A stretch of DNA of 37,881 nucleotides from Gemmatimonadota bacterium (GTDB lineage: Bacteria; Gemmatimonadota; Gemmatimonadetes; Longimicrobiales; Gaopeijiaceae), in the NCBI GenBank assembly GCA_009692205.1, contig SHZR01000025.1, positions 1-37,881 on the forward strand, written 5' to 3'. This document shows, one piece after another, positions 19,521 through 37,881 of this stretch (position 1 is the first letter of the stretch; every line of letters starts with the position of its first letter). The position numbers and the translations under genes are program-made. Under the pieces are notes generated by a model. It did not search any database. It had not been told where the DNA came from and worked only from the letters and a program-made list of their open reading frames with translations.

Positions 19521-22073
19521 TCAGCCGCACTCCGAGTAGCCGCATACGTGGCATTTCTTGCAGCCCTCCTCGAACGCGAGGTGGCCCGTGCCGCACTCGG
19601 GACAGGTCCCCATGTCGAACGACTCGCCGCCCGACGCACTCGGCGCGCTCTGAGGCTGCCTGCCACCCTGCGGTGCGAGAGTCGTGAGCGGAAGCGCTTC
19701 CTGCACGCCCGCCTTCTCCTCGAGGTAGCGCTCGATCGCCTGCCCGACCGCGTCGGGTACGGAGAGCACCTTGTTCGGCCCGAGACCGACGGCCCGGTCA
19801 CACGAAATGCCGCGGATCTGGTCCTTGACCTGCTGGATCGAGATGCCCGAACGCAGCGAGAGGGACATGAGCCGGCCTATGGCCTCGGCGTCGGCCATCG
19901 CGGCGCCGCCCGCCTTCCCGAGCGTGCAGAACACCTCGAACGGCCGTCCCCGCTCGTCCTCGTTGATGGTGACGTACAAGTCGCCGAGGGGTGAGTTCAT
20001 CTTCATGGTGTAGCCACGGAGCGCGAGCGGACGCTGGCGCTTCCGCCGCGTGGCCCCTGCCTCGAGATCCTTGTCCTGCATGTCGGCCGTGAGACGCTCG
20101 TTCTCCACGCGGAGGTTGTGGTTCTCCTCGCGTGCGTCGGCCAGGTGGTGCTCCAGCTGCGACACCTCCGCGGCGAACTGCGCGCTGGCTGCCTGGGTCG
20201 CCGCCGTGTCCGCCGGCGCGGTCTTGCCGGTGGAGAGGACCTGGCCCTCACGCGATCCGTCGCGGTAGACCGTCACGCCCTTGCACCCGAGCCGGAAGGC
20301 GAGCTCGTAGATCTCGCGCACGTCCTTCTCGGTCGCCTCGCGAGGGAAGTTCGTCGTCTTGCTGATGGCGCTGTCGGTGTGCTCCTGGTAAGCCGCCTGC
20401 ATGCGCACGTGCCACTCCGGCGCGATGTCGTGCGCGGTGCGAAAGGCCCTCTGCACGTCGCCAGGAACCTCGTCGAAGTGGATGTGCCCCTCGTTGGCGA
20501 TCCTCTCCATGAGGTCGGCGGAGTACCAACCGCCCTGCTTCGCGATGCGCACGAAGTCGGGGTTCACGTCCGGCATCAGCGCTCCGGCCTGGTTGCGCAT
20601 GAACGCCACGGCGAACAGCGGCTCGATGCCGCCCGAGCAGCCCGCGAAGATCGAAATGGTCCCGGTCGGGGCCACCGTGGTCATGTTGCAGTTGCGGAGT
20701 TCCTGAGCCGCACGGATGCGCGTGCCGTCCGCGCGCCGAGCCGCCGTGCGGTCCGGCCCCCAGATGGAGCCGCGCCAGGCGGGAAACACCCCACGCGTCT
20801 CCGCGAGCCGCTGCGACTCGACGCGTGCCTGCTCGTCGACGAACGCCATCACGCGCTTCGCGAGCGCGACCCCGTCCTCGGAGTCGTACGGAATACCGAG
20901 GCGCACCAGCATGTCCGCCCAACCCATCACGCCGAGGCCGATGCGACGGATCTTCTGCGCGAGGTCGTGGATCTCCGGGAGCGGATAGACGTTGGCGTCG
21001 ATCACGTTGTCCAGGAAATGCGTCGACAAGTGGACGACCTTCGCCAACGCGTCCCAGTCGATGCCCTGCTCCGGCGCGTCGCCCCAGCGCGCGTCCGCCT
21101 TCACGAAGGCCCCGAGGTTGATGCTCCCGAGGTTGCAGACGTCGTAGGGGAGGAGCGGCTGCTCACCGCACGGATTGGTCGCCTCGTAGTCGCCGAGCTT
21201 CGGCACGGGGTTGTACTCGTTCGCCCGGTCGATGAAGAACGTGCCCGGCTCGCCCGTCAGCCACGCCCCGTGCACGATCATGTCGAAGATCTCGCGCGCG
21301 TTCTCGCTCCCCTCGATCTCTCTGGTCTTCGGGTTGATGAGCTCGTAGTCCGCGCCCTTCGCCACCGCGTCCATGAACGCGTCGGTGATGGCGACGGAGA
21401 TGTTGAAGTTCGTGATCTGCGTCGTGTCGTTCTTGCAGGCGATGAACCTGCGGATGTCCGGATGGTCGACGCGCAGGATGCCCATGTTCGCGCCGCGGCG
21501 CGTGCCACCCTGTTTGACGACGTCCGTGCTGGCGTCGTAGAGCTTCATGAACGACACGGGCCCGGACGCCACGCCCATGGTCGAGCGCACCGTCTCGCCC
21601 TCGGGACGGAGGCGGGAGAAGCTGAAGCCCGTGCCGCCACCCGACTGATGGACGAGCGCCATCGCCTTGAGCGTGTCGTAGATGCCGCTCTGTCCGTTCG
21701 AGAGCGCGTCGTCGATGGGGAGCACGAAGCACGCCGAGAGCTGCCCCAGCGGACGGCCCGCGTTCATGAGCGTGGGGGAGTTCGGCTCGAACGTCCCGGT
21801 GATCATCAGGTCGTAGAACCGGCGAGCCACCTCGTCCACCGCAGCCGCGGAAGCGCCGTAGTCACGGTCCACGTCGGCGATCGTGCGAGCGACCCGCCAG
21901 AACATCACGTCGGGCTTCTCGGTGGGGTTTCCCCTGCCGTCCTTCTTCAGGTAGCGACGTTCCAGCACCAGGCGTGCGTTGTCCGTGAGTTCGGGCCGCG
22001 GCAGGCCGCCGGGCAGTACGTCGTCGAAGATGTGGGGCTCACAGGGTAGGCGAACCTGGTGCACGAGCGTCAT
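19521..22073 (-). CDS. nrdJ: Vitamin B12-dependent (class II) ribonucleotide reductase
   Basis: NrdJ reduces ribonucleotides to deoxyribonucleotides using adenosylcobalamin. The 850-residue product has the class II core: SACFVLPIDDALSNG, GGGTGFSFSRLRPEG, the N-x-C-x-E catalytic motif in NPCGEQPLLPYDVCNLGS, and PTGTISIFAGCSGGIEP. A hydrophilic coiled-coil insert (residues about 628-678) precedes a TSCPD domain (from RGYTMKM, residue 686). The end carries a cysteine-rich tail (CPEC, CKKC, CGYSECG). I start at the ATG 22071-22073, since the 50 upstream in-frame residues cross a terminator. No cobalamin-riboswitch signature was found upstream. A weak NrdR-box-like palindrome lies at 22108-22124. 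Confidence 0.96.
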   Translation of the reverse strand: MTLVHQVRLPCEPHIFDDVLPGGLPRPELTDNARLVLERRYLKKDGRGNPTEKPDVMFWRVARTIADVDRDYGASAAAVDEVARRFYDLMITGTFEPNSPTLMNAGRPLGQLSACFVLPIDDALSNGQSGIYDTLKAMALVHQSGGGTGFSFSRLRPEGETVRSTMGVASGPVSFMKLYDASTDVVKQGGTRRGANMGILRVDHPDIRRFIACKNDTTQITNFNISVAITDAFMDAVAKGADYELINPKTREIEGSENAREIFDMIVHGAWLTGEPGTFFIDRANEYNPVPKLGDYEATNPCGEQPLLPYDVCNLGSINLGAFVKADARWGDAPEQGIDWDALAKVVHLSTHFLDNVIDANVYPLPEIHDLAQKIRRIGLGVMGWADMLVRLGIPYDSEDGVALAKRVMAFVDEQARVESQRLAETRGVFPAWRGSIWGPDRTAARRADGTRIRAAQELRNCNMTTVAPTGTISIFAGCSGGIEPLFAVAFMRNQAGALMPDVNPDFVRIAKQGGWYSADLMERIANEGHIHFDEVPGDVQRAFRTAHDIAPEWHVRMQAAYQEHTDSAISKTTNFPREATEKDVREIYELAFRLGCKGVTVYRDGSREGQVLSTGKTAPADTAATQAASAQFAAEVSQLEHHLADAREENHNLRVENERLTADMQDKDLEAGATRRKRQRPLALRGYTMKMNSPLGDLYVTINEDERGRPFEVFCTLGKAGGAAMADAEAIGRLMSLSLRSGISIQQVKDQIRGISCDRAVGLGPNKVLSVPDAVGQAIERYLEEKAGVQEALPLTTLAPQGGRQPQSAPSASGGESFDMGTCPECGTGHLAFEEGCKKCHVCGYSECG

Positions 22074-22126
22074 TTCCGGGCCGGCTCCTGTGGACGGAGG
22101 GTGGAGAACCCTGGATATAGAGGTTG

Positions 22127-22154
22127 AAAAGCGGCGGGAGATGGCTCCCGCCGC
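22127..22154 (-). terminator. Intrinsic terminator or attenuator upstream of nrdJ
   Basis: On the minus strand GCGGCGGGAG (22154-22145) pairs perfectly with CTCCCGCCGC (22140-22131) around a CCAT loop. TTTT follows at once (22130-22127). It is the best intrinsic terminator in the window. It lies 192 nt beyond the stop of the peptidase/barrel gene and 53 nt before the nrdJ ATG, so it may end the former or attenuate the latter. Confidence 0.75.
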
Positions 22155-22346
22155 GGAATGAACTGTGGAAACGCCCTCGGAGGGGCTACTGGATCTGGGG
22201 CTCGCGCATAGTACGCGTCCCATATGTTGTGGTCAAGCTCGTCCGAGCCCGATGTCGCGCGCACGCGACGGGCGTCGCCGGAGCACCGTCGGAGCGGCCC
22301 GTCTTCGGCGTATGTTCGGGACGTTCCGGGCCGTTGGCAAGGGCCC

Positions 22347-35443: not shown

Positions 35444-36130
35444 CTATCCGCGCAGGCTCCAAAACGAGCCAGTGAGGCCTGCAGCGGCGATGAGCGCCTC
35501 AGCTTCCTCGAGCGTGTGCCGCCGCCAGTCGGGGCTGAGCTTGTCTTTGTACCAGCCTCGGGCAAGATGCCACGCTTGGGCGGGTGTCAGGATACCACCA
35601 CGGGGCAAGTCGCGAGCTTCACACCAACGATCCACATGAGCTTCCGACCGGAAGCCGAGCATCGTGGTTCACGTGAAGCCGATATTGTCCCACCAATGAT
35701 GGGCAGGCACTGCGAAGTGGACGACGCCCTCGCTCCTCACGAGTTCGCCATCGCGTATTTCGAAGCGAAGCGCGCTGCCGCAGTCTCCGCAGGGAGCGGT
35801 AATGACCGCATCCGCATCCATGGCCGCCGGAATGCCGAGCGCATCCCAGATGCAGATGCCCCAATAGATCCTGCCTTTGGCCTGCACCCGAAACCCAGAT
35901 GGAACCGCGCAGAACGGATTGGCCGCCCAAATGCTTCCGTCATGGGGCGCCATGATCAGGACCCTGGCGCGTCCCAATTCGAACAGGGCACGCTTGACCT
36001 CATCCTCAGAGCGACCGAGAGCTCCAGCGATCTGGCCCGACTGAGGTACCCGTCCGGTCGCCGCTGCCTCCCCAAACAGATGAAGCCGCACCTCGGTCAG
36101 GAACTCGGGTGATGAAGCTCCGCTCGTCAT
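35444..36130 (-). CDS. Organomercurial-lyase (MerB)-like protein with in-frame UGA, candidate selenoprotein
   Basis: Read through one TGA (35669-35671), this gene gives 228 residues. An N-terminal winged-helix part (IAGALGRSEDEVKRALFELG) leads into NPFCAVPSGFRV and YWGICIWDALGIPAAM. APCGDCG (C114, C117) and GVVHFAVPAHHWWDNIGFT follow, then the UGA at residue 154. After it come TTMLGFRSEAHVDRWCEARD and a C-terminal block with LSPDWRR. This is the MerB family, which splits carbon-mercury bonds with two cysteines and an aspartate. As I recall the family, homologues have FTC where this gene has FT-UGA, the second catalytic cysteine position. A SECIS-like hairpin follows 19 nt later. The codons on both sides share one frame. 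No mer genes or selA/selB/selC/selD are visible. A Cys-to-stop mutation is the alternative. Confidence 0.78.
35632..35667 (-). promoter_or_regulatory. Candidate bacterial SECIS element within the MerB-like coding region
   Basis: On the minus strand GCTTCC (35655-35650) pairs with GGAAGC (35645-35640) around the tetraloop GGTC (35649-35646). ATG/CAT (35662-35660 with 35638-35636) and CCAC/GTGG (35667-35664 with 35635-35632) extend the stem, leaving a bulged G (35663) and an internal loop. The apical loop starts 19 nt after the TGA. The E. coli fdhF SECIS also presents a GGUC apical loop at about this distance. Confidence 0.7.
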
Positions 36131-36143
36131 GGCTTTCTATGCA

Positions 36144-36866
36144 CTATCCCAGGTTGTGAAACACCTTCTGGACATCGTCTTCCTGTTCCAACTGATCGAC
36201 CAACGCCAACGCTTCGGTCGCCTGATCTTCCGGTAAGTGCACGGGGTTCAGCGCGATGTATTCGAGCTCCGCGGATACGGGGGTGATGCCCCGATCTTCG
36301 AGCGCCCGCTGCATACGGCCGAAGTCCGGGAAGCCGCAGTGGACGACGAGCTGCGGCTCGCCCTTCTCACCGTTGGCCTCGCCCATCTCGTCGAGCCCGT
36401 GGTCGATCAGGTCGAGCTCGAGTGATTCGGCATCCATCCCTTCGGGCTTCAGGCGGAAGACGCCCATATGCTTGAACGCGAATGCGACGGCGCCGGTAGA
36501 CGCCAGGCTGCCCCCCGCGTGGCTGAAATGCGAGCGCAGGTTGGCGACCGTACGCGTGGGATTGTCCGTGGCGGTCTCCAGCAGCACGGCCACGCCGTGG
36601 GGCGCGTACCCCTCGTAGAGGATCTCCTCGTAGACCGCCGCGCCCTGCCCCGAGGCGCGCTTGATCGCGGACTCGACCTTGTCCATGGGCATGTTCACGG
36701 CGCGCGCATTCTGGATGACGCGCCTGAGCGTCGGGTTGTTCTCGGGGATCGGCCCAGCCGCCTTCACCGCGATCGCGATGTCTTTCCCGATGCGTGCGAA
36801 CTGCTTGGCCATACGGTCCCAGCGGCGAAACATCGTCGCCTTCCGGGTTTCGAAAATCCGTCCCAT
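36144..36866 (-). CDS. YebC/PmpR-family protein (TACO1-like)
   Basis: This 240-residue protein belongs to the YebC family, described as DNA-binding regulators and more recently as translation factors that help ribosomes at difficult motifs. It starts [20 protein letters not shown] rather than the usual MAGHSKWANIKHRK, the variant form I associate with Bacteroidota-type paralogues. Conserved stretches follow: [48 protein letters not shown]-like [17 protein letters not shown] and the [13 protein letters not shown] turn. GGAAGG lies about 9 nt before the ATG, supporting this start. It lies 14 nt upstream of the MerB-like gene on the same strand, so they may be co-transcribed. Confidence 0.92.
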
Positions 36867-37595: not shown

Positions 37596-37676
37596 GCGCC
37601 CCATGCTCTCTCGGTAGGCACAGGCGCGACTGATTCCCAAGGTCCGACAGATCGGGGCCATCTTCCGCCCCGTCAT
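37596..37676 (-). pseudogene. IS3 transposase OrfB, N-terminal stub
   Basis: MTGRKMAPICRTLGISRACA followed by YRES matches the start of IS3-type OrfB, where a short helix-turn-helix precedes the DDE integrase domain. A -1 shift on the A-AAA-AAG run in orfA would join the two frames in the normal IS3 manner (KKKTPLLRRVQA into orfB). After about residue 27 the sequence no longer resembles a transposase and the DDE domain is absent. Confidence 0.68.
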
Positions 37677-37881
37677 CGCTTGGACACGCCGTAGTAGCGG
37701 GGTCTTTTTTTTACCTCGTCCCGCGCAGCCTGGAGAATCTCGACCTCCATGGTCTTCTTTCCCAGCGCCCGCTCGAGACCCCGAATACGATTCTGCGCCG
37801 CACGGAGCTCGCTGAGCGGCACCACTTCCTCGTTCGCGCTGACCGCCGCCGAGCTACCGTTCGCGCTCAGGTGGTGCCATC
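37673..37881 (-). pseudogene. IS3 transposase OrfA, C-terminal part
   Basis: The partial frame ends with VVPLSELRAAQNRIRGLERA, then LGKKTMEVEILQAARDEVKK, RPRYYGVSKR and a TGA. The leucine-zipper-like helix with ALGKKTMEVEIL is typical of IS3 OrfA proteins, which bind the element ends. The stop overlaps the orfB ATG (ATGA). The N-terminal helix-turn-helix lies outside the window. Transposition is unlikely because orfB is truncated. Confidence 0.72.

Follow-up and report, generated by a model that had tools for sequence, protein, structure and literature searches.

A UGA-interrupted MerB-superfamily gene of a Gemmatimonadota bacterium, predicted to encode a selenoprotein with a MerB-type active site

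The window analysed here, a stretch of 37,881 nucleotides, is a contig of a single MAG (2.7 Mb, 98% complete) and carries on its minus strand a gene for a MerB-domain protein, referred to below as Sec-MerB (35444..36130). The reading frame extends from an ATG at 36130 to a TAG at 35446-35444 and gives 228 residues once its only in-frame TGA, codon 154 (35671-35669), is read through. The original prediction had treated two minus-strand open reading frames as one TGA-crossed frame with MerB-family sequence in both halves, and the 36130..35444 reading bears this out: the Pfam MerB domain (PF03243) crosses the TGA, matching residues 74-194 with 101.6 bits, over the gathering score. A scan of the whole genome returned this gene as the sole MerB match (94.1 bits, with one TGA inside). 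About 14 bases upstream lies a gene for a YebC/TACO1 protein (36144-36866, minus strand), and directly downstream one for a molybdopterin-binding oxidoreductase domain protein (PF00174; 34622-35347, minus strand). Neither is conserved as a neighbor across phyla, nor was any other such neighbor found, local synteny being confined to Gemmatimonadales MAGs. Elsewhere in the window, a large frame at 19521-22223 (minus strand) resembles by eye a B12-dependent (class II) ribonucleotide reductase. The beginning of the contig (15-95 and 249-554) lies within the start of an elongation-factor-like GTPase, beside tRNA-Thr/Gly/Tyr genes; the GTPase start has equal coordinates in another contig (C45; L008/L009), which points to a duplicated tuf region as the probable site of the assembly break. 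A short frame at the other end (37673-37825, minus strand) looks by eye like an IS3-type transposase fragment.

A homologue of Sec-MerB was found in 16 of 98 related genomes, the source genome counted, the best matches of the others being 33 to 41% identical; 15 of these genes have an in-frame TGA and one has TGC. We then searched 85,000 species genomes and obtained 182 relatives, the best 80 of which were read. The original prediction had proposed a search for close homologues with TGA at the equal codon, and 92 of the 96 homologues examined (those from the best 80 of the 182 included) carry it at the column of codon 154. Two further homologues, both from Geodermatophilaceae, have TAG. The TGA homologues are spread over about ten phyla, with records, in which single MAG labels may be wrong, from Gemmatimonadota, Acidobacteriota, Chloroflexota, Thermomicrobiota, Actinomycetota, Planctomycetota, Marinimicrobia, Krumholzibacteriota, Eisenbacteria, Myxococcota and Eremiobacterota. 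Across 395 genomes of the gene's own phylum, exactly one TGA was present in 49 of 58 full-length matches and none in the other nine, all of which have TGC at the Sec column. This codon was seen there in 10/10 stop-free relatives examined, and in the Cys-form relatives (L036, L132, L133, L138-L145) it replaces TGA within one continuous frame. An alignment had also been suggested as a check for Cys at residue 154, and the Cys-containing relatives have it exactly there. Throughout the family, Sec is preceded by Thr (once by Ser) and followed by T, S, A, R, G, K or E. One decayed homologue (L038; G043 C1:3745674-3745991) has a second in-frame TGA and lacks a full-length match; it is apparently a pseudogene of the family.

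The search for sel genes that had likewise been proposed found the full set in the source genome: selA (554 bits), selB (323 bits), selD (390 bits) and a tRNA-Sec with anticodon UCA (66.5 bits), the last also found by ARAGORN. The selD gene is itself interrupted by TGA within SHGAG-U-ACKLG, where selenophosphate synthetase usually has its Sec. Given SelA, SelB, SelD and tRNA-Sec(UCA), together with a selD that has its own TGA, the source organism very probably decodes Sec. The distribution of selA follows that of the gene: it is present in 16/16 relatives with the gene versus 46/82 without it (p = 4e-4), and in 27/27 TGA genomes (one a fragment) versus 3/9 TGC genomes (Fisher p = 4e-5), p-values that are optimistic in that the counts take in related genomes. 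It was absent from six of eight newly examined Cys-form genomes. Because Cys forms also occur in some selA-bearing genomes (G220, G330 and G068), Sec is not obligatory.

The two TAG homologues belong to Modestobacter excelsi (L074:5427-5429) and Geodermatophilus pulveris (L087:5385-5387), and both retain an intact hairpin of the kind described below. The strongest tRNA-Sec matches in these genomes (66.9 and 64.2 bits, respectively) have the anticodon CUA; ARAGORN calls them tRNA-Pyl (L122, L123), and the next best match of the tRNA-Sec search is a tRNA-Ser in both. The TGA-bearing relatives from Nocardioides and Sporichthyaceae have tRNA-Sec(UCA). The codon at the Sec column therefore tracks the anticodon of tRNA-Sec, a match that is unexplained by nonsense mutation or ordinary read-through. 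UAG-coded Sec is already established in Geodermatophilaceae for other selenoproteins (PMC5330540), and the paired UGA/UAG switch tests Sec decoding genetically, as a natural experiment.

Downstream of the UGA, at a distance of 19 nt, the transcript can form a bSECIS hairpin, GGCUUCC-GGUC-GGAAGCU (35639..35656, minus strand), with a 7-bp stem and a GGUC apical loop (35646-35649). Its folding energy of -10.2 kcal/mol was equalled by 1 of 200 shuffles. The constraints published for bSECIS elements are a loop of 3-9 nt with G in its first two positions, a stem of 4-16 bp, a distance of 16-37 nt from the UGA and an MFE <= -7.5 (PMC13188914), and the hairpin lies within them. Among 83 distinct sequences, pairing holds in 91% of cells, 27 cells show double changes and 13 more pair types occur; this level of covariation was reached in 0/500 shuffles, and the structure outscores versions of itself slid by 1-3 columns. 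Most of the variation is concentrated in the three pairs at the base of the stem; the four nearest the loop are near-constant. Synonymous codons are frozen across the hairpin (TTC in 92/92, CGG in 89/92, TCG in 86/86), whereas the same residues outside it use mixed codons (CGG in 35/90 for Arg at +44, TCG in 50/84 for Ser at -103). Sec forms keep 5-7 of the seven pairs and nine of ten Cys forms 1-5; the GGTC loop is retained in two of those nine, and the remaining Cys form (L143) has seven pairs but a different loop.

The coding part that follows the TGA (35444..35668, minus strand) comprises 74 residues, which had been described at the outset as family-like codons. They are under purifying selection: for 11 of 12 close pairs, dN/dS downstream of the TGA is less than 1. 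W193, G218, L219 and W224 are invariant. These observations bear on two readings of the TGA without recoding. The gene could be a pseudogene whose TGA reflects either faulty sequencing or a nonsense mutation of recent date, as might be suspected for a single-MAG contig in which the frame is otherwise that of an ordinary MerB-domain gene. TGA in 92/96 homologues, the two TAG genes with their matching tRNA, the purifying selection past the stop and the frozen, covarying hairpin all speak against it, and we give this reading practically no weight. Pseudogene and sequencing error alike are ruled out by the roughly 90 orthologues; a TGC or TGT misread as TGA, one of the three cases named in advance as refuting, is excluded by the same TGA homologues and by the two TAG genes with altered tRNA-Sec. 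The other two, a genome devoid of sel genes and relatives lacking a cysteine at the column, were likewise contradicted by what was found. Alternatively, the UGA could be a true stop and the N-terminal 153 residues the functional product, whether or not the C-terminal part is also translated on its own. Automatic annotation would read the locus in this manner, and an ATG 3' of the TGA does open a 72-aa ORF (35444..35662, minus strand). Yet the C-terminal part, with its invariant residues, is integral to the MerB fold, genomes that for the most part lack selA have TGC instead of TGA in an uninterrupted frame, and the swap to TAG occurs only alongside an altered tRNA-Sec; termination at codon 154 is thus highly improbable. 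Comparative sequence evidence makes it nearly certain that UGA154 is a codon for selenocysteine, as predicted.

The full protein, modeled with Cys at position 154, gave a predicted fold with a pLDDT of 96.6. Clear resemblance of this fold to solved structures was limited to MerB2 (Z 18.7) and MerB (Z 10.7-15.1). The catalytic triad of MerB is Cys96-Asp99-Cys159, in which the aspartate serves protonolysis. Profile alignment to MerB structures places Cys93 (35852..35854, minus strand) on C96 and Asp96 (35843..35845, minus strand) on D99, both invariant in 94/94 family members, and residue 154 (35669..35671, minus strand) on C159. The original prediction was therefore right to put the TGA at the second catalytic cysteine. 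Its choice of C114 as the first was wrong, that residue being Cys in 79/94 members versus 94/94 for C93. Cys93-Asp96-Sec154 is, by this alignment, very likely the counterpart of the MerB triad and would form a MerB-type active site. Asp96, the proton-handling position, is replaced by Cys (CAWC/CxWC) in the Cys forms L036, L132, L133, L138-L142, L144 and L145, which hints that the Asp96 and Sec154 columns may change together in the closest Cys forms.

Sec-MerB is set apart from each of the known members of the superfamily. MerB of the plasmid R831b type (1s6l, 3f0o, 3f2f) has a similar fold (Z about 15) and the triad C96/D99/C159 in register with C93/D96/U154. Sec-MerB, at about 19% identity, differs from it in having Sec for the second catalytic Cys, in lacking the vicinal Cys160 and in standing outside a mer operon, and its scores are far from both MerB equivalog cut-offs (NF009710, 31.5 versus 193 bits; NF033555, 24.4 versus 200 bits). 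The closest solved structure is Hg-bound MerB2 (PDB 5c17; Z 18.7 over 188 residues), which shares the 'TC' context at the second Cys. MerB2, however, contains Cys rather than Sec, and a Ser at the position of MerB D99 (AWCAIS), where Sec-MerB reads ANCAWDA. The Cys-form relatives belong to the same wider subfamily as Sec-MerB, with Cys at the Sec column; they differ in having TGC instead of TGA, a hairpin that is mostly gone and, in most, Cys for Asp (CAWC).

SaoL (NF040728), a MerB-like organometallic lyase, is likewise a selenoprotein of the MerB superfamily, listed with its CU motif in a 2026 review (PMC13188914; also PMC9312934). The common superfamily, the shared selenium and a match of the SaoL model to residues 36-134 (E 5e-7) could suggest that Sec-MerB is this known selenoprotein of the Sec-assisted organometallic system. 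The match scores 29.7 bits, however, where the cut-off is 140, and no CU motif is present: Thr, once Ser, precedes Sec, which stands alone at the C159 column. Identity with SaoL is accordingly very improbable, and membership is refuted by score, both for the protein itself and over the 395 genomes of the phylum, in 0 of which the SaoL cut-off was exceeded. When 45 family members were compared with NCBIfam, they matched the MerB and SaoL models only, the Sec-MerB protein far under each cut-off. The NCBIfam library and the review lists consulted hold no model or entry for the Sec-MerB family; it may have been named elsewhere, for example in a 2020 review table that lists 'Organic mercuric lyase MerB2' without a sequence (PMC7435645). 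The deep-Sep paper leaves MerB unmentioned. Since the NCBIfam matches are limited to these two models, under their cut-offs, and SaoL is absent by score from the phylum, we regard Sec-MerB as an apparently unnamed new selenoprotein family inside the known MerB superfamily, distinguished from SaoL by profile score. The initial remark that no established selenoprotein of the MerB family was known needs correction for the superfamily, in which SaoL was already listed; the Sec-MerB family itself reaches no NCBIfam cut-off.

Taken jointly, Sec insertion, a MerB-type active site and a MerB-like role, mercury as substrate not included, are likely. SelB and tRNA-Sec almost certainly decode UGA154 as selenocysteine under the guidance of the bSECIS hairpin that follows it. 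By analogy with MerB, the most likely course of the reaction is then as follows. The thiolate of Cys93 and the selenolate of Sec154 would capture an organometal cation between them, with CH3Hg+ as prime candidate, the carbon-metal bond would be broken by a proton from Asp96, and the inorganic metal ion would pass to cellular thiols. Sec, which is ionised at neutral pH and has a higher affinity for Hg than a thiolate, would allow faster capture at trace concentrations. On this analogy, cleavage of organometal-carbon bonds by Sec-MerB is rather probable.

The genomic context does not resemble that of MerB proper, which is found in mer operons with MerA, MerT and MerP. No mer genes stood beside the gene in any of the 80 loci examined; the best MerA match in the gene's own genome (349 bits) was below the cut-off of 454, and of the 16 relatives that carry the gene, just two have a MerA above it. 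Given its position outside mer operons, Sec-MerB presumably serves as constitutive housekeeping protection rather than as part of an inducible resistance cassette. With no mer neighbors, and no MerA over the cut-off in its own genome, mercury can be named only as the foremost candidate substrate, and the chances that it is mercury specifically appear evenly balanced. A MerB-fold selenoprotein acting on something other than organometals, for instance in redox or thiol/selenol transfer through a C93-U154 selenenylsulfide pair, seems unlikely when set against a Cys-Asp-Sec triad in 94/94 members, including the Asp that MerB uses for protonolysis, and against Hg-bound MerB2 as the closest structure. 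The missing mer genes and the lack of a regular MerA partner would suit such a protein, as would the redox chemistry thought to be the role of most prokaryotic selenoproteins (PMC9312934). Returning to organometal cleavage, the broadest form of the proposal is a Sec-dominated branch of the MerB superfamily, present as a stand-alone housekeeping gene in about ten phyla, whose selenolate would help to break carbon-mercury or carbon-metal bonds; this we put forward tentatively, with slightly more doubt than conviction. It would imply a selenium-based route of methylmercury demethylation that lies outside mer operons and in which Geodermatophilaceae have changed the Sec codon to UAG. If methylmercury is indeed cleaved, an overlooked demethylation route, truncated at the UGA by annotation, would exist in many bacteria of soil and water that lack a mer operon, and Sec would serve carbon-metal bond chemistry and not redox, the natural Cys forms being built-in controls.

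A second candidate selenoprotein was observed in the genomes of two relatives, in genes for an FAD disulfide oxidoreductase (L152:354-1706 and L153; G024 C26:57853-59205 and G010 C11:3286-4638). In these genes a TGA occupies the codon of the first redox cysteine (GGT-U-VNEGC), and their scores fall between two families, with 408.5 bits for dihydrolipoyl dehydrogenase (cut-off 408.8) and 396 bits for MerA.
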